Of a stretch of DNA of 50,888 nt, positions 2,823 through 9,117 are shown one piece after another. Below the pieces are notes generated by a model. That model saw only the letters and a list, made by a program, of their open reading frames with translations, was not told the origin of the DNA and did no database searches. The translations under genes and the position numbers were made by a program. Each line of letters starts with the position of its first letter. Position 1 is the stretch's first letter. The stretch comes from Bacteroidota bacterium (GTDB lineage: Bacteria > Bacteroidota > Ignavibacteria > Kryptoniales > JAKASW01), in assembly GCA_021794075.1 (NCBI GenBank), contig JAJYRM010000016.1, forward strand, positions 1 to 50,888, written 5' to 3'.

Positions 2823-2846
2823 AAAGCTAGACTCTTGAATAAGTCA

Positions 2847-4172
2847 ATGGGAGAAATCCGCATTGTGATCGTTGGAATTCGAGGATTGTCACGCTTGGTC
2901 AGCGTTTTGTCAGTATTCCTTATGATCCTCTTCTTAACGACAGACGGCAAATGTCAGTCCTCCTATCATGACCAGACTATCCAGCAAATCCTCGCGATGC
3001 CATCGGACAGCATCAATCTCGGCATCGCATGCCTTGTCCTTGCGAAAGACGCATATCCGAAACTAAATATCGACTACTTCAATTACTGCATCGACTATAT
3101 GGTGCGGCAGATTCGTTATCTCAACCAGCGGAGGACCGATCCCCTTGCGAGGATAGGACTCTTAAACACCTACCTGTTCAGACCGGGCTGGTGGAACGAT
3201 TCCATTACATTCACATATAATCTCAACGACCTCGAAGCCGACAGCACCGATGACCAGTTCTTAAACGGCTACATCGCGACAAAGCATGGCTCCTGCATCA
3301 CGATGTCGATGCTCTACCTTGTCCTTGCACAAAGACTTGGGTGGCCTATCCGCCCGGTGAGGAGCGCAAAGCATTTCTATTGCCGCTATATCGCGAAGGG
3401 ATTCAGGCAAGCCAACATCGAGCCAACCTGCGGTGGCGGATACATCCCGACCTGGAGGTATGCCGTGGACGCCGGAGAACCGAAGAGAGCCATACGAAAT
3501 GGTGTCTACGAGAGAGTCCTTACGAATAAGCAATACATCGCATCGCTCCTCGAAGAAAACGCCCGATATTTTCTTGATAAGAAGAAAGATTTGGACAAAG
3601 CCATTTACTACACGAGACTTTCCATCAAATACGACTCGACTAACTCAGGAGCCTACTGGAATCTCGGTGAGTTGTACCGGCGAAAAGCAATTCAGCTTGA
3701 CAGCATAAGATATGATAAGATTCAGGAGCTGAAAGCTTCGACGGGCGTCGATAAGCTTTTGATGCGACACCGCAGGTCGGAAGTCGAAACGTATATGCCT
3801 CCGCCGCGACCGACGGCCGTAAGCCCTGAACCGGCGATGCCTAAGGCTCCGGACCCTTCGGTATTCGGTGAATACTTGAATGGTGTAGTACCGGGGCCCG
3901 CACCACAATCTCGGATTACTGCCTGGCCTTCACCCAATCAGAACTTTCGCCGGCAAGACAAGGCGATCTACCAGGATGATCAGGGGATTCTATTTTCCAA
4001 GGTGCAGCAGATTAACAGCAACTATGGAAAACGGATAATGGAACTCCTGGCTCTTTCGCGCAGGCTGAAAGCGAAGGCTAAGAGACTTGGTATCGTACTT
4101 CGATTCCCACGAGAGTTTTTCATTAAACAGGCCGAATCTATTGCAAAATTCAGACGAACAGGTGAATATTAA
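2847..4172 (+). CDS. Secreted transglutaminase-like (SirB1/Transglut_core2) protein with TPR
   Basis: 441 residues with an N-terminal hydrophobic segment (VSVLSVFLMILFLTT) resembling a signal peptide or anchor. The middle carries KHGSCITMSMLYLVLAQRLG then PVRSAKHFYCRY, the Cys-His arrangement of papain-fold SirB1/Transglut_core2 domains; Cys150 and His176 (counting from 2847) would be the catalytic pair. A TPR-like stretch follows (KAIYYTRLSIKYDSTNSGAYW), then a Pro-rich linker and a basic tail. The start is uncertain: ATG 2847 was chosen, TTG 2835 is in frame, and neither has a clear ribosome site. It begins 24 bases after the secretin, so is probably co-transcribed. Its substrate is unknown; a peptidoglycan or pilus-maturation role is only a guess from position. 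Confidence 0.7.
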   Translation: MGEIRIVIVGIRGLSRLVSVLSVFLMILFLTTDGKCQSSYHDQTIQQILAMPSDSINLGIACLVLAKDAYPKLNIDYFNYCIDYMVRQIRYLNQRRTDPLARIGLLNTYLFRPGWWNDSITFTYNLNDLEADSTDDQFLNGYIATKHGSCITMSMLYLVLAQRLGWPIRPVRSAKHFYCRYIAKGFRQANIEPTCGGGYIPTWRYAVDAGEPKRAIRNGVYERVLTNKQYIASLLEENARYFLDKKKDLDKAIYYTRLSIKYDSTNSGAYWNLGELYRRKAIQLDSIRYDKIQELKASTGVDKLLMRHRRSEVETYMPPPRPTAVSPEPAMPKAPDPSVFGEYLNGVVPGPAPQSRITAWPSPNQNFRRQDKAIYQDDQGILFSKVQQINSNYGKRIMELLALSRRLKAKAKRLGIVLRFPREFFIKQAESIAKFRRTGEY

Positions 4173-4190: not shown

Positions 4191-5027
4191 ATGAAACGGT
4201 TTCTGTTTCTTCTTGCCGCAATAGCCACGGTGGTGGCTCTCGCTCCGAAGGCGAGTTATGCGCACAGGTATTTTGATGCTTGGGCCGCGAGGTGGACAAC
4301 ACCAGATCCGGCGTTAAATGAGAACCCGCAGGTTCTCATGAAGAAATACGGATATACGTTGTTTGAGACCTCGCCGTACATGTACACTCACGATAATCCG
4401 TTGAGGTATGCGGACCCGAACGGGAAGCGGGGTTTCGACATGATAGGAGGGCCAATGCTACCGCCGACCTCTTGGGCGCAGCTTAAACGGAACGTGATCA
4501 TGGCAGCAGCGGAGACCGGTGGTGCTGCGTTACTGTATTATGCTCCACAGGCTGCTCTCACCATCGCATCATGGTGGGCGGAAAATCCGGCGGCCGCAAA
4601 TGAAACTGCGAACACTGTCATTGATGCTCTGGCGCCTGCACCTGGTGGAGTCACTGGAGCTTTGCCGGAAGGACTTAACCTACCGGAGGGAAGGTCCCTT
4701 GGTGATATTTCCAGTATGATCATAGGGCCGATGCATGCTGTCGAGGGCCTTGTCAGCGAAGGTTACACGACTTCTGCCGAATCTAAGGGCGCCGCCTACT
4801 TCTTCCTATCCAACTACGATGAATTATCTCAAGCAGCGAGGGACAAACTCAATTTTGGGGCGCTTGATTATGCTATGAAGAACGGATGGGACATAGATTT
4901 AACGATTTCAAAAGGACAAGTGAGAGAAGGGACGCAACTTTACAAAGAAGTTCAATATATGGAGAAGAACGCGACGGATTACGGCTATCGATGGAATCAA
5001 AGTGGTACAGCTTTTACGAGACAATAG
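4191..5027 (+). CDS. Mini-RHS polymorphic toxin, cassette 1
   Basis: 278 residues; ATG preceded by AAAGGGCG. A Sec signal peptide (residues 1-24, ending SYA) is fused directly to the end of an RHS repeat-associated core: HRYFDAWAARWTTPDPALN, then YMYTHDNPLRYADPNGK. This corresponds to RYYDPxxGRWxxxDPL...YxYxxNNPLxYxDPxG of RHS proteins, with no YD repeats or cage before it. DPNGK is where RHS cores autocleave. Residues ~90-150 are Ala-rich and hydrophobic, and like in kind to those of cassettes 2 and 3. The ~90-residue tip ending GYRWNQSGTAFTRQ is unique here and I do not recognise it; by family logic it is the toxin. The likely immunity gene starts 13 bases later. The leader DNA is almost identical to the copies at 6183 and 8009. 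Confidence 0.75.
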   Translation: MKRFLFLLAAIATVVALAPKASYAHRYFDAWAARWTTPDPALNENPQVLMKKYGYTLFETSPYMYTHDNPLRYADPNGKRGFDMIGGPMLPPTSWAQLKRNVIMAAAETGGAALLYYAPQAALTIASWWAENPAAANETANTVIDALAPAPGGVTGALPEGLNLPEGRSLGDISSMIIGPMHAVEGLVSEGYTTSAESKGAAYFFLSNYDELSQAARDKLNFGALDYAMKNGWDIDLTISKGQVREGTQLYKEVQYMEKNATDYGYRWNQSGTAFTRQ

Positions 5028-5040
5028 GAAAGGGAAAACA

Positions 5041-5463
5041 GTGAAATCCTTTAAAGAATTTGATGACAGATTTGGACCTGCGTTCAAAGGCATGGGATTC
5101 ATCGGTCCGGAGGTGAAGTATTTCAGTAACCCCAAGGGTTGGCAAGCTGAATATAGGTTACGCGCAGTGAAGGTAATTGCCGATACTGATCCGTCAGGTA
5201 TTGTAGCGCTTTACGTAGTTTCAACACCGGAACCGCCAATTGCTTTTCCGCTGTCAACACTATGCACCTTAGTAACCGGCAGGGATTACTCATATCGCTT
5301 GACGGAAGAGGAGGAGATAGAGTTTTTGGAGGACAACTTTACCTCTGTAGAACGGATGATAGATGTTGATAATCGACTCAACACGCAAAAAAGAATAGAA
5401 AACTTTGTGGATGGCTATCATCAAAAGAAATTCCCCGATGCCTTTAGAAATGGCAAGAGATAG
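5041..5463 (+). CDS. Probable immunity protein of cassette 1
   Basis: 140 residues, cytoplasmic (no signal peptide or membrane segment), acidic and not recognised as a named family. The GTG at 5041 is preferred to an in-frame upstream codon inside the toxin gene because AGGAAAGGG lies just before it, and it begins MKSFKEFDDRFGPAFKGMGF. The 13-base gap after the mini-RHS gene, small size and lack of an export signal fit an immunity protein that neutralises the adjacent tip. By eye its base composition is more AT-rich than the flanking pil genes, consistent with horizontal acquisition. Function is inferred from position only. Confidence 0.6.
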   Translation: MKSFKEFDDRFGPAFKGMGFIGPEVKYFSNPKGWQAEYRLRAVKVIADTDPSGIVALYVVSTPEPPIAFPLSTLCTLVTGRDYSYRLTEEEEIEFLEDNFTSVERMIDVDNRLNTQKRIENFVDGYHQKKFPDAFRNGKR

Positions 5464-5468
5464 CTTTT

Positions 5469-5534
5469 TTGCAGAGACAAAATGGGTATGCATGGAACAA
5501 AGGCAAAACAGTTCTTGTCGCTGCACAAAAATAA
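5469..5534 (+). pseudogene. Orphan toxin C-terminal tip fragment (relic)
   Basis: In the short gap between two small genes, the forward frame ending at the TAA of 5532-5534 reads LQRQNGYAWNKGKTVLVAAQ then K-stop. This resembles the end of the cassette 1 toxin (GYRWNQSGTAFTRQ): both have G-Y-x-W-N, a Thr five residues on, and a Gln near the stop. No start or leader precedes it. It is read as the remains of a displaced toxin tip whose immunity gene (5559-6086) survives. The similarity is short, so the call is tentative. Confidence 0.4.
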
Positions 5535-5558
5535 GACGATATATAGAAAGATATCTTT

Positions 5559-6086
5559 ATGGATAAAGGCTACCCAAGCGTCAATAAAGCGAAGAGGCTA
5601 TTCATTGATTATCTCGGCAATTCCTTCTTGATGTGGCACGAGGGGGTGTTGGAAGAGTATCGTTCTTTCGGCATTGGCACTGCACAAGAGTCAGCCTGGT
5701 TTGAAGAGTTGAAGGCCAGTTTTTTGTCTAGGCTCTCTCAAGGCGATTACTCGGCGATGGGCGATCTGTGGCAGATGGGTGCTCAAGATGCCCTTCCGAA
5801 TATTCTCGTTGTCTCACCAGTAGGAAATAGCTGGACAAAACTTCGTTTTGCTGAGGACTTATGGCGTTTTACTAACATGCATACCAGCCATCCTGCGGAG
5901 CCTGATGTGATAAGGCAAGCTTGCAAGAAAGCAATTGAGATTTGGCAGGACTTGTTACACTCTGCTACAGATATCGACGTGCCAAATGATGTAATGAAAA
6001 TCGCTGCGAATGGGCGAACTCCTCACGACTACTTCCGTGATCGATTAAACTCAAACTTGAATAGAGCGTCTGCCACCGGCATCTAA
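5559..6086 (+). CDS. Probable orphan immunity protein
   Basis: 175 residues, soluble, no recognised family. Begins MDKGYPSVNKAKRLFIDYLG; Trp-rich in the middle (SAWFEEL, DLWQMGAQDALP) and mostly helical in appearance. The ATG at 5559 has only a weak AGAAAG upstream. It follows a toxin-tip relic by 24 bases and precedes cassette 2 by 96 bases, the usual place for an immunity gene kept after its toxin was replaced. An alternative is a second component needed by the cassette 1 pair. There is no direct functional evidence. Confidence 0.55.
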   Translation: MDKGYPSVNKAKRLFIDYLGNSFLMWHEGVLEEYRSFGIGTAQESAWFEELKASFLSRLSQGDYSAMGDLWQMGAQDALPNILVVSPVGNSWTKLRFAEDLWRFTNMHTSHPAEPDVIRQACKKAIEIWQDLLHSATDIDVPNDVMKIAANGRTPHDYFRDRLNSNLNRASATGI

Positions 6087-6182: not shown

Positions 6183-7058
6183 ATGAAACGGTCACTGTTT
6201 CTTCTTGCCGCAATAGCCACGGTGGTGGCTCTCGCTCCGAAGCCGGGTTATGCCCACAGATACTTTGATACGTGGGCTGTCGAAGATCCCGCGCTTCGCG
6301 GGACGAGATGGACGACGCCGGACCCGGCGCTGAATGAGAACCCGCAGGTGCTCATGAAGAAATACGAATACAGGTTGTTTGAGACCTCGCCGTACATGTA
6401 CACGCACGATAATCCGTTGAGGTATGCGGACCCGAACGGGAAGCGGGGCTTTGACATGATAGGTGGTCCAATTATCGTCTCGACATCGTGGAAGGAATTT
6501 GAATATAGGTTCATTGGAACCGCTGCTGAAGGGGCAGCAGTCGCAGCGCTTTACTTTGTCCCCGAGCTTACTACCAAAGCAGTGCAATGGATGCTTGCTA
6601 ATCCTGCGGCAACTGCAGCCATCTCTACTGCGGCAGCGGAATCATTGGCTCCTCCGGGGGCTTCCCTAAATCCTGCGGGGACCGCTGAGGAGTTGGGTAA
6701 TGGAATTCTCTCAGACGCGAAGTTCGCGCAAAGCACCTATAGTGAATTCTTCAGCAAAGAAGGAGCGTTTGCAGGAAAGAGTATAGATGATATCGCAGCC
6801 GCTCTTAAGAATGGGACGCTAAGTGCCGAAGACGTTCCCGTTGATTATATTCTCAAAGATGGGCATGTCCTTATTCTCAACACAAGATCAGCGCAAGCAT
6901 TGGAAAGAGCGGGGATTTCACGAGCAGACTGGAACGCTGTTGATCGAACGGGTGAAGCCGCGTATGAGCAACGCTTGATGGAGCAATTGAAAAAAAACAA
7001 CCTCACAACTGAGGGCACCAGCAATGTCACTTCAACAGGAAGGCAGAATGAGCGATAA
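6183..7058 (+). CDS. Mini-RHS polymorphic toxin, cassette 2
   Basis: 291 residues. The ATG at 6183 matches the start of the other two copies; an in-frame ATG at 6144 is possible but would put 13 extra residues before the signal peptide. Signal peptide ends GYA; the RHS-core remnant reads HRYFDTWAVEDPALRGTRWT then YTHDNPLRYADPNGKRG, with an eight-residue insertion relative to cassettes 1 and 3. A hydrophobic Ala-rich stretch leads to AAAESLAPPGAS, a linker shared with cassette 3. The tip contains SIDDIAAALKNGTLSAEDVP, HVLILNTRSAQALERAGI and RTGEAAYEQRLMEQLKKN. I believe this type of tip also ends longer RHS proteins elsewhere, but I cannot name its domain or activity. Its last 11 bases overlap the immunity gene. 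Confidence 0.75.
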   Translation: MKRSLFLLAAIATVVALAPKPGYAHRYFDTWAVEDPALRGTRWTTPDPALNENPQVLMKKYEYRLFETSPYMYTHDNPLRYADPNGKRGFDMIGGPIIVSTSWKEFEYRFIGTAAEGAAVAALYFVPELTTKAVQWMLANPAATAAISTAAAESLAPPGASLNPAGTAEELGNGILSDAKFAQSTYSEFFSKEGAFAGKSIDDIAAALKNGTLSAEDVPVDYILKDGHVLILNTRSAQALERAGISRADWNAVDRTGEAAYEQRLMEQLKKNNLTTEGTSNVTSTGRQNER

Positions 7059-7431
7059 AAAAGTCTTCGAAATTCCCGTTCCATCCACTTCCTTCATCGA
7101 GCAGCCAAGCTTGATGGAGGAAGATGGATCTCTAATCATCACCTTTGCCTATTTGAACGGGAAAAGTAGGGTTCGTGGTAAACTCCTATTTTTGAAACCG
7201 AGGTCTTATCGTTGGCGGGCCGAAGTCCATTGTACCGCGTGGCATATTGGTAACTCCTACGATGCTATATCGGAGGTTATGGATTCCTCGTGGGCTCAAG
7301 AAATAGGCAATGACACTGCAAAGGGTTGGAAAGACAAATGGGTGCTTCGCCATTTCAAAGTCTATCTGGATAGTTGGGGCGCCTTCGAAGTCCTGTGCGA
7401 GGATTTTTCCTTTAGTGAAGTACCCGTCTGA
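7048..7431 (+). CDS. Probable immunity protein of cassette 2
   Basis: 127 residues, soluble. The ATG at 7048 (MSDKKVFEIPVPSTSF) is chosen over 7024 because CAGGAAGG ends five bases before it. It overlaps the last 11 bases of the toxin gene, so translation is probably coupled. Beta-rich look with conserved-looking aromatic residues (SYRWRAEVHCTAWHIGNSYD and RHFKVYLDSWGAFEVL). The family is not recognised with certainty. Tight coupling to a secreted RHS-tip protein and absence of export signals support an immunity role. Confidence 0.6.
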   Translation: MSDKKVFEIPVPSTSFIEQPSLMEEDGSLIITFAYLNGKSRVRGKLLFLKPRSYRWRAEVHCTAWHIGNSYDAISEVMDSSWAQEIGNDTAKGWKDKWVLRHFKVYLDSWGAFEVLCEDFSFSEVPV

Positions 7432-7433
7432 CT

Positions 7434-7529
7434 TTCGCAAACGGCGATAGACAAATAACACAGAGGGCGTATAATGCCGCTGGGCAACTAGTCCATGATC
7501 ACGTATGGAAGGCTTTTGGGCAACAATAA
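7434..7529 (+). pseudogene. Orphan toxin C-terminal tip fragment (relic)
   Basis: After cassette 2's immunity gene, a forward frame without a start reads FANGDRQITQRAYNAAGQ then LVHDHVWKAFGQQ and stops at TAA 7527-7529. That stop shares one base with the ATG of the next small gene (TAATG). A frame that looks like protein, ends exactly at an immunity-type start, and has no leader is what a displaced toxin tip leaves behind. It is under 35 codons, so chance cannot be excluded, but the junction geometry is the same as at 8792-8796 (TAGTG). Confidence 0.45.
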
Positions 7530-7972
7530 TGAGCCGAAACAATCCGTTAAACGAGATGGAACTGGTGGCTATCAAGAGATTCGTCAGATGTGAAATAACA
7601 CTCGACGAGTTGAGTACTCACCTCTCTGGCAAGATCTCAAATAGTTCGAATTCCGGTGAGTTTAATCTTAGAATTAGTGCAGATGCGTATATTTCAATCC
7701 CTTTCGAGTCTGAAGACCTCAAATCGGTATTGAGCAAGTTCATACAAGGAAAGGTAGATGATTCATGCATCGTAGTCTGGACTAAGACTCTACGTATCTG
7801 GCCGACTTTGGTTATTCATCGCGAGCATGAGGAGGTAATTAAGGAGGTCATATATTTGCTTGGCTCTCCCGAAACTCATACCGCTATTACTTTGAAAACC
7901 ATCTCGTATCTAATGAATTGTGTCGACGAAAACATTATGCGGGATGAGTGGCTACTTGAAGGTGATATCTAA
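7529..7972 (+). CDS. Probable orphan immunity protein
   Basis: 147 residues from ATG 7529 (MSRNNPLNEMELVAIKRFVR); an in-frame ATG at 7505 would overlap the relic. Soluble, with an early helical part (CEITLDELSTHLSGKI), then strand-like segments and HREHEEVIKEVIYLLG near the end. The family is not identified. It starts on the stop codon of a toxin-tip relic (TAATG), which argues for its origin as that tip's immunity gene. It ends 36 bases before cassette 3. Base composition is AT-richer than the flanking pil genes. Confidence 0.55.
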   Translation: MSRNNPLNEMELVAIKRFVRCEITLDELSTHLSGKISNSSNSGEFNLRISADAYISIPFESEDLKSVLSKFIQGKVDDSCIVVWTKTLRIWPTLVIHREHEEVIKEVIYLLGSPETHTAITLKTISYLMNCVDENIMRDEWLLEGDI

Positions 7973-8008: not shown

Positions 8009-8794
8009 ATGAAACTGTCTCTGCCTCTTCTTGCCGCAATAGCCACGGTGGTGGCTCTCGCTCCGAAGCCAGGTTATGCCCACAGGTACTTTGATACGTG
8101 GGCGGCGAGGTGGACGACACCCGATCCGGCGTTGAATGCAAATCCTCAGATCGTTGTCAAGAAGCATGGCTACCGTATATTTGAGGTCTCTCCGTACGTA
8201 TATTGTTCGGAAAATCCGATAAAGTACGTAGATCCGAACGGGAAGCAGGGAGGACTAAGCCTTGGCGGCCCGATCTTGCTGCCAACATCATTGCGGCAAT
8301 TGGAGTACAATGTTGTCGCAACATTGACGGCAAGCGCGGTTACACCAGGGATGGTTTATGCTCCAGGCGTAACGGCTACGCTAGTCGGAAATATACTGGG
8401 GAATCCGGCAACGGCTGCGGCAGTTGGCGCTGCAGCTGCAGAATCGTTGGCTCCGCCAGGGGCGAGTATGAATCCTGGCGGAGATGTCTCCAATGCCCTC
8501 AGCGGTGAGGTGGAAGGAGGCTCCCACGCAGCAGATGTTCTATCCCAGTTGATGAAAGGGACATCGGACTATAGCCAGGGGCAACTCACCATGTTTGAGA
8601 AACAATTGTCGAAAGATGGCATGGAATCGTTGCTGGAATCACGGGCGACCTTTTCGGAAAGACTGGCAGAACATTTGCAGAATTTGGAACAGTATGAAAA
8701 AGCAGGAGGTTATACAAGCAGTGTAAAGAGAGAGATAAGGAACTTCCAACAGCAAATTAACGCAATCGACGAAGTTATTAGGAGGCACAACTAG
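8009..8794 (+). CDS. Mini-RHS polymorphic toxin, cassette 3
   Basis: 261 residues. Same leader (LAAIATVVALAPKPGYA) and the same RHS-core remnant, slightly more diverged (YVYCSENPIKYVDPNGKQG). Ala-rich hydrophobic segment, then AAAAESLAPPGASMNPGGD as in cassette 2. The tip (~175-261) contains LTMFEKQLSKDGMESLLESR, AEHLQNLEQYEKAGGYTSSV and KREIRNFQQQINAIDEVIRR, a Gln/Glu-rich helical sequence. I think such tips occur at the ends of other RHS and contact-dependent toxins but cannot name the domain or activity. The TAG stop overlaps the next gene's GTG by one base, giving obligate proximity to its partner. Confidence 0.75.
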   Translation: MKLSLPLLAAIATVVALAPKPGYAHRYFDTWAARWTTPDPALNANPQIVVKKHGYRIFEVSPYVYCSENPIKYVDPNGKQGGLSLGGPILLPTSLRQLEYNVVATLTASAVTPGMVYAPGVTATLVGNILGNPATAAAVGAAAAESLAPPGASMNPGGDVSNALSGEVEGGSHAADVLSQLMKGTSDYSQGQLTMFEKQLSKDGMESLLESRATFSERLAEHLQNLEQYEKAGGYTSSVKREIRNFQQQINAIDEVIRRHN

Positions 8795-9117
8795 TGGTAT
8801 CCAGAATTTTAGGTAACGTTGATAAGATTAAGGAGCTTGCGAACCGCTTGTCTAAGTCAGATAGGGTTGCGAGCTACGACAAACCCGATGAGCCACAATC
8901 GTGGACGATGGCCGTTGCTCTAAATGACATCGAGGAGTCCTTCATCAGGATATTTGAAGAACAACTACCTCCACTATTGGATGGAGACATGTCAACATCT
9001 ATGCTGGAGCAGCATCTGCATGCAATTGGTGAAGAATTCCGCCATATACTTTACCACATGAAGGATTGCGCATACTATGGATACCTGTGGCCGGATGACT
9101 CCACAGAAACCCAATAG
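8794..9117 (+). CDS. Probable immunity protein of cassette 3
   Basis: 107 residues; the GTG shares its first base with the toxin stop (TAGTG), and AGGAGG sits 8 bases upstream inside the toxin gene. Soluble, acidic and helical (NVDKIKELANRLSKSDRV, EQLPPLLDGDMSTSMLEQHL, HILYHMKDCAYYGYLWPD). The short size, coupling and lack of export signal fit an immunity protein. The named family is not certain. It is the last intact cassette gene before the decayed leader at 9121. Confidence 0.6.
   Translation: MVSRILGNVDKIKELANRLSKSDRVASYDKPDEPQSWTMAVALNDIEESFIRIFEEQLPPLLDGDMSTSMLEQHLHAIGEEFRHILYHMKDCAYYGYLWPDDSTETQ

Follow-up and report, generated by a model that had tools for sequence, protein, structure and literature searches.

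Signal peptides fused to RHS-core stubs beside a transglutaminase-like gene: a candidate Sec-exported, cage-less polymorphic toxin system in a Kryptoniales genome

RHS cores are usually studied in their role of plugging a toxin cage and acting as its autoprotease, and the locus described here raises the question of what such a core does when there is no cage around it. It lies in a 50,888-nucleotide stretch of DNA (hereafter the window), a single contig (JAJYRM010000016.1, our C228) of the 240 which make up the 4.5 Mb assembly GCA_021794075.1, from a Bacteroidota bacterium of the order Kryptoniales (class Ignavibacteria). Three open reading frames (ORFs) in the window consist of a predicted signal peptide, a stub of an RHS core and a C-terminal tip (SP-core genes), and they follow a partner gene encoding a Transglut_core2/TPR protein (TG). 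These genes look like a stripped-down toxin system rather than broken gene ends. On balance we favour the reading that they would form a Sec-exported, cage-less polymorphic toxin system with a MafA/MafB-like layout, in which the RHS stub would serve as the constant domain and TG as its partner. The four genes are as follows.

2835 to 4172, + strand: TG, a secreted transglutaminase-fold (Transglut_core2) and TPR protein (PF13369, E 2.4e-11; TPR matches)
4191 to 5027, + strand: copy 1, with signal peptide (4191-4262), RHS-core stub (4266-4424), pre-toxin region and tip; 278 residues
6183 to 7058, + strand: copy 2, with signal peptide (6183-6254), stub with an 8-residue insert (6258-6440) and CdiA-type tip; 291 residues
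8009 to 8794, + strand: copy 3, with signal peptide (8009-8080), core stub (8084-8242) and tip; 261 residues

A sequence-only reading of this DNA had proposed a signal peptide fused to an RHS-core remnant at 4191, and likewise at 6183 and 8009, and both the TIGR03696 profile and hydropathy bore this out for the three ORFs. TIGR03696 (Rhs_assc_core, 76 positions) matched copy 1 with E 2.3e-7 (profile positions 32-75), copy 2 with E 8.7e-4 (43-75) and copy 3 with E 8.2e-10 (33-75); of these, copy 3 is above the curated cut-off, copy 1 just below it and copy 2 well below it. All three therefore keep only the C-terminal half of the core. Signal peptides were called from hydropathy and the (-3,-1) rule: each N-terminus opens with a basic n-region, followed by a hydrophobic stretch whose best 10-residue Kyte-Doolittle mean is 2.7-2.8 and then by an A-x-A-like site, with predicted cleavage at SYA/H or GYA/H (the slash marking the cut). 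The mature start is HRYFD, so that the core Arg comes second in the mature protein. Residues R26, S61-P62-Y63 and D75-P76-G78 of the core are invariant. No lipobox cysteine was present at the cleavage sites SYA/H, GYA/H and TFA/G.

The same reading was right that the cage is absent and that the core starts at the signal-peptidase site, an arrangement which recurs in other lineages. A profile search of all contigs did not find the YD-repeat (PF05593) anywhere in the assembly. The earlier description of the stub as the last ~55 residues of an RHS core holds for the length of the stretch (53-61 residues) and not for its origin, as the homologous core amounts to only ~41 residues and the rest is a 12-residue insert, with 8 more residues in copy 2. 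The three window cores have the 12-residue insert in common, and it is lacking in the RHS cores found elsewhere in this genome and in related ones. In total, ~155 N-terminal residues are common to the three copies, beyond which the sequences differ. The extra in-frame insert of copy 2 contains a palindromic 20 bp (GATCCCGCGCTTCGCGGGAC; 6285 to 6304, + strand), which has its sole match in the window there (0.01 expected) and resembles a small palindromic element.

The implied autoproteolysis at the DPxG site was not supported. Canonical Rhs autocleavage uses two DPLGL-type motifs 17 residues apart (PMC8636562). Here the first motif is DPAL and the second DPNG, leaving a single DPxG, with 32 residues between the two (20 in the closest relative carrying the cassette), and the core lacks its upstream half. 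For these reasons, canonical RHS autocleavage of the stub is unlikely.

The sequence-only reading had overlooked the features which define the system, namely the linked TG gene, the immunity-type genes and the remnants of orphan cassettes. TG is 445 residues long with a TPR-like C-terminal part, and its stop codon lies 18 bp ahead of copy 1; the start codons and the spacing of the SP-core genes from TG are consistent with an operon. Cys154 and His180 were invariant in all seven aligned homologues, and the third residue is acidic (E, or D in Latescibacterota). Because these residues are kept, a role as peptidase or transamidase is possible, with scaffold or export roles equally open. The AlphaFold model of TG had a mean pLDDT of 67, and its best PDB fold match was menin (E 0.009, TM ~0.3), which is below usual significance and should be taken as a hint only. 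Menin combines a transglutaminase-like fold with helical repeats and binds a peptide.

We then looked at how far the arrangement extends beyond this genome, using an SP-core alignment search of 391 genomes of the class and a TG alignment scan over 84,980 species genomes; the class and phylum sets are samples. It should be noted that most of the related loci derive from metagenome-assembled genomes (MAGs) and that some TG frames are broken in them. The closest relative carrying the cassette, a Candidatus Kryptoniota MAG of the same genus (G010; locus L078, JAHECO010000046), has a TG homologue (63% identical) directly ahead of a signal peptide, core and unrelated tip. The sequence-only reading had allowed that close relatives might carry a full RHS gene upstream; there is none upstream of the cassette in either the window or G010. 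With TG upstream in both, the tail end of an upstream RHS gene was ruled out as an explanation. The SP-core fusion was also found in two further genomes, G372 with three copies in tandem and G363 with three loci apart from one another, and each locus has TG upstream. Named records in the TG scan included Ignavibacteria, Melioribacteraceae, Candidatus Kryptoniota, Candidatus Latescibacterota and a "Gemmatimonadetes" MAG with a truncated TG, the last of which shares its phylum group with the Latescibacterota genome. In the Latescibacterota record (L080), TG is followed by signal peptide, core and tip. TG is rare, occurring in 5 of the 391 class genomes at E <= 1e-20; the phylum search added G556, where the order is signal peptide, ~45-residue linker, core and Ntox23 tip, then a lipoprotein gene and then TG. 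G317 carries a decayed version of the G556-type locus. Downstream of TG in G556, metallopeptidase-like and lipoprotein ORFs (L093, 6512-9120) look like a displaced toxin/immunity array.

The position of the junction is also shared. Matches to TIGR03696 start at positions 31-35 of 76 in G372, G363, G010 and L080, and at 43 in G556, and at the direct-junction loci the first residue past the signal peptide is the residue which precedes the RYYD-type sequence. In ordinary cores of related genomes, RYYD mostly follows directly on YFGA. Core matches in the class sample which reached into a signal peptide (query start <=9; ten ORFs in four genomes) were all linked to TG, while those starting at 21-25 were ordinary cores after a YFGA-RYYD-type sequence or orphan fragments. 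Fortuitous starts would not be expected to give one and the same junction next to one rare gene in at least two phyla. Another type of truncated core start, one without TG, was seen in G276 (L066, 2503-6192), where several RHS orphan modules have an unusual common N-terminal stretch (KKYVIKKRILIIFPKGMALPGA) joined to RYYD.

We compared the window copies with one another to determine how the stub has evolved. The cores gave ratios of nonsynonymous to synonymous divergence (dN/dS) of 0.06, 0.15 and 0.17 at synonymous divergences (dS) of 0.53-1.41; the DNA of the signal peptides was nearly identical (dS 0.08-0.10), and the tips were unalignable and saturated. The core is thus under purifying selection, and it probably works as a protein. 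As the three window cores have in common a 12-residue insert which RHS cores elsewhere lack, they diverged as SP-cores, which also points to a function at the protein level. Evidence of exchange was found in relatives. In G372 the DNA of copies 1 and 3 is identical over a stretch which opens 22 bp ahead of the ORF, in the last TG codons, and ends at +92, eight codons into the core. Past this point the cores differ; copy 3 thus once lay directly behind TG or has received the junction. In G363 (L065), homology of a downstream orphan module to the main gene starts inside the signal peptide and the original start is missing. This orphan module (5108-5827) has a Tlde1-like (L,D-transpeptidase type) tip with two small membrane-protein genes behind it. 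The sequence-only reading had offered a new use for the remnant and a recombination handle for new tips as alternatives. There is support for both: low dN/dS with diverged synonymous sites argues for a constant protein module, and the G372 joint and G363 orphan cassette argue for a recombination joint, and the stub may well be the two at once.

Behind each copy in the window lie small genes and short open stretches, which we assigned as follows.

5041 to 5463, + strand: probable immunity gene of copy 1, by position and spacing (GTG start 13 bp past the copy 1 stop)
5472 to 5534, + strand: possible 3' tail left by a displaced toxin tip, by translation (QRQNGYAWNKGKTVLVAAQK-stop)
5559 to 6086, + strand: putative orphan immunity-like gene after the tail remnant, by ORF and position
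7048 to 7431, + strand: probable immunity gene of copy 2, by position (ATG overlaps the copy 2 end by 11 bp)
7440 to 7529, + strand: possible 3' tail left by a displaced toxin tip, by translation (NGDRQITQRAYNAAGQLVHDHVWKAFGQQ-stop)
7529 to 7972, + strand: putative orphan immunity-like gene after the tail remnant, by ORF and position
8794 to 9117, + strand: probable immunity gene of copy 3, by position (GTG overlaps the copy 3 stop codon)

Profile searches matched the product of 5041-5463 to no known family. We infer that 5559-6086 and 7529-7972, with the short open stretches preceding them, may be the leftovers of displaced tip and immunity pairs.

The tips and the genes behind them were compared with known families. 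The tip of copy 2 has 38% identity (E 1e-16) to filamentous-haemagglutinin (CdiA-type) toxin C-termini on Burkholderia and Duffyella plasmids; by sequence comparison its putative immunity gene is unlike the gene which follows the Burkholderia tip. Close behind the related CdiA-type tip on these plasmids, on the opposite strand, is an RNA 2'-phosphotransferase gene (L082, 3296-3847; L083, 3282-3881), whose product might repair RNA damaged by the tip. The G556 tip matched Ntox23 (E 3.9e-8), another SP-core tip matched DUF6973 (E 1.3e-6) and the G363 orphan tip was Tlde1-like below the cut-off (E 1.4e-3). One G363 tip (L065) is followed by a SUKH-1-like gene (E 1.5e-4, just below the cut-off). 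Genes after the G372 tips encode proteins with signal-peptide-like starts of their own, and export of these putative immunity proteins is as expected if the G372 tips act in the periplasm. A constant N-terminus with variable C-terminal tips which match toxin families, the pattern of polymorphic toxins, was therefore found. The tip of copy 3 had no match in plasmids and one weak match in a class relative.

In the system which we favour, the SP-core protein would be exported by Sec and signal peptidase would leave a mature start of the form x-R-Y-Y/F-D at the core strand. The TG-TPR protein would then recognise the stub, a constant module either folded or extended, and may anchor, process or export the toxin, as MafA does with the constant domain of MafB. 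At the DNA level the stub would be the joint at which new tip and immunity pairs are spliced in, with older pairs pushed downstream as orphans, and the tips would be interchangeable, each with its own immunity gene, downstream of a constant TG. A more specific version, which we put forward tentatively and with more doubt than confidence, is that a catalytically competent TG/TPR protein reads the mature RHS-core stub as a tag and then cleaves, cross-links or exports the toxin, which would make this a new Sec-dependent system. The RHS core would then have been reduced from an autoproteolytic plug in a cage to a tag which marks the substrate of a partner enzyme, a proposal we hold just as tentatively.

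The mosaic DNA invites a simpler explanation, in which the stub has no function as a protein and is a mere homologous-recombination handle for tip swaps behind a generic signal peptide. The joint inside the G372 core, the G363 orphan cassette which begins mid-signal-peptide and the unequal divergence of signal peptides and cores in the window would all follow from it. However, a pure DNA handle should preserve synonymous sites, and those of the window cores have diverged (dS 0.5-1.4) at a dN/dS of 0.06-0.17, while the common insert, absent from the RHS cores of this genome, indicates that the window copies diverged as SP-cores with their protein sequence kept; the linked TG would also be left unexplained. 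We consider this explanation unlikely. The sequence-only reading had raised the possibility that the remnant is not under purifying selection, which these ratios do not bear out. Decay is another route to such genes: they could be decaying 3' remnants of complete RHS genes (orphan rhs-CT) whose hydrophobic start arose by chance, like those at enterobacterial rhs loci, and this genome does contain RHS gene ends with a complete core and RHS fragments on other contigs, just as class relatives contain ordinary orphan RHS modules which start mid-core. We give this very little weight, as the direct-junction loci, from at least two phyla, all have TG alongside and the signal peptide joined to one and the same residue of the core, and the start codons and TG spacing are operon-like with no RHS gene upstream in the window or G010. 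Finally, TG is constant, always adjacent and keeps its Cys, His and acidic residue, as it would were it itself the effector or a cell-surface enzyme, with the SP-core proteins as non-toxic secreted substrates or adhesins. That is hard to reconcile with hypervariable tips which match Ntox23, CdiA-type and DUF6973 families and have genes for SUKH-like or exported small proteins behind them, a polymorphic-toxin pattern, and we think it quite improbable.

Several observations weigh against the toxin system which we favour. The AlphaFold check proposed for the three proteins was run on copy 1 and was uninformative, giving no usable model (mean pLDDT 43.5). Family searches placed the tips of copies 1 and 3 in no known toxin family, the immunity genes within the window were assigned by position, and the role of TG is argued from guilt by association. 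The TG frame is damaged or truncated in L064, L080 and L092, where TG may be dispensable or the assemblies in error. It is also possible that the purifying selection acted partly in full RHS genes, if cores were repeatedly captured from them.

In the window the cassette is flanked by a secretin gene (609-2822) on one side and PilM/PilN-type genes (from 9321) on the other, and PADLOC gave no match. Positions 1-118 of the window resemble the C-terminal end of a GspE/PilB-type ATPase. On another contig of the same genome (C71; L032, 4249-6213), pseudopilin and prepilin peptidase genes are followed by the start of a GspE/PilB-type ATPase, and this contig also holds the ends of two RHS genes with a full core. 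C71 and the window may lie next to each other in the genome, in which case a single type II secretion/type IV pilus-like operon may be flanked by both toxin clusters. The cassettes of relatives sit in genomic surroundings other than a pilus-like operon.

In distant lineages, the C-terminal half of the RHS core has here been kept under selection without a cage, with a signal peptide ahead of it and a gene for a dedicated partner alongside, which lets the solo function of the RHS core be asked. The locus also offers a compact two-gene system in which to study the processing and release of Sec-exported polymorphic toxins in Bacteroidota-like phyla, and toxin-tip exchange is visible in progress at a defined joint. 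A literature search, in which subscription journals were mostly outside coverage, found no paper combining a truncated RHS core, a signal peptide and a transglutaminase-like partner.

The features of polymorphic toxin systems described by Zhang et al. (2012; PMC3482391) are matched by the SP-core tips and putative immunity genes. Like Rhs/YD-repeat proteins, the SP-core genes have the C-terminal half of the Rhs core followed by polymorphic tips and putative immunity genes, with recombination between displaced modules (PMC8636562, PMC3967940). They differ in having no cage, no first half of the core, a signal peptide fused to the core, their own start codon and a linked TG, whereas orphan rhs-CT fragments are usually without initiation and export signals (PMC3967940). 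The system is derived from the Rhs family, yet is not a canonical member of it, having no cage, half a core and an incomplete protease motif. Zhang et al. also described a transglutaminase domain, its catalytic residues lost, fused N-terminally to RHS toxins (PMC3482391); a transglutaminase fold is thus associated with Sec-exported RHS-type toxins in both cases, with a fused inactive domain there and a separate gene with Cys, His and acidic residue here. The tip of copy 2 is common to CdiA/FHA-type two-partner toxins of Burkholderia and Duffyella, but its 291 residues include no TPS domain or haemagglutinin repeats (no Pfam match), and no CdiB gene was seen beside it, its neighbours being TG and pilus/secretin genes. 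SitA of myxobacteria are exported polymorphic toxins with linked immunity (PMC5562445, PMC8546572), as is proposed for the SP-core proteins. They are lipoproteins moved by outer-membrane exchange, in contrast to the SP-core proteins with no lipobox cysteine. SitA is not known to be related to an RHS core. In the MafB/MafA/MafI systems of Neisseria, variable tips are attached to a signal peptide and constant domain, and secretion depends on an outer-membrane partner encoded next to them (PMC4287609, PMC7738311). The constant domain there is DUF1020, of which there is no Pfam match here, where the RHS-core stub takes its place, and the upstream gene encodes the outer-membrane lipoprotein MafA there and the TG/TPR protein here. 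With both DUF1020 and MafA missing, the system is not a member of the MafB family, and the likeness to it is one of layout: a signal peptide, conserved N-terminal domain and variable tip, with a putative immunity gene behind, a constant secreted partner upstream and silent tip cassettes downstream.
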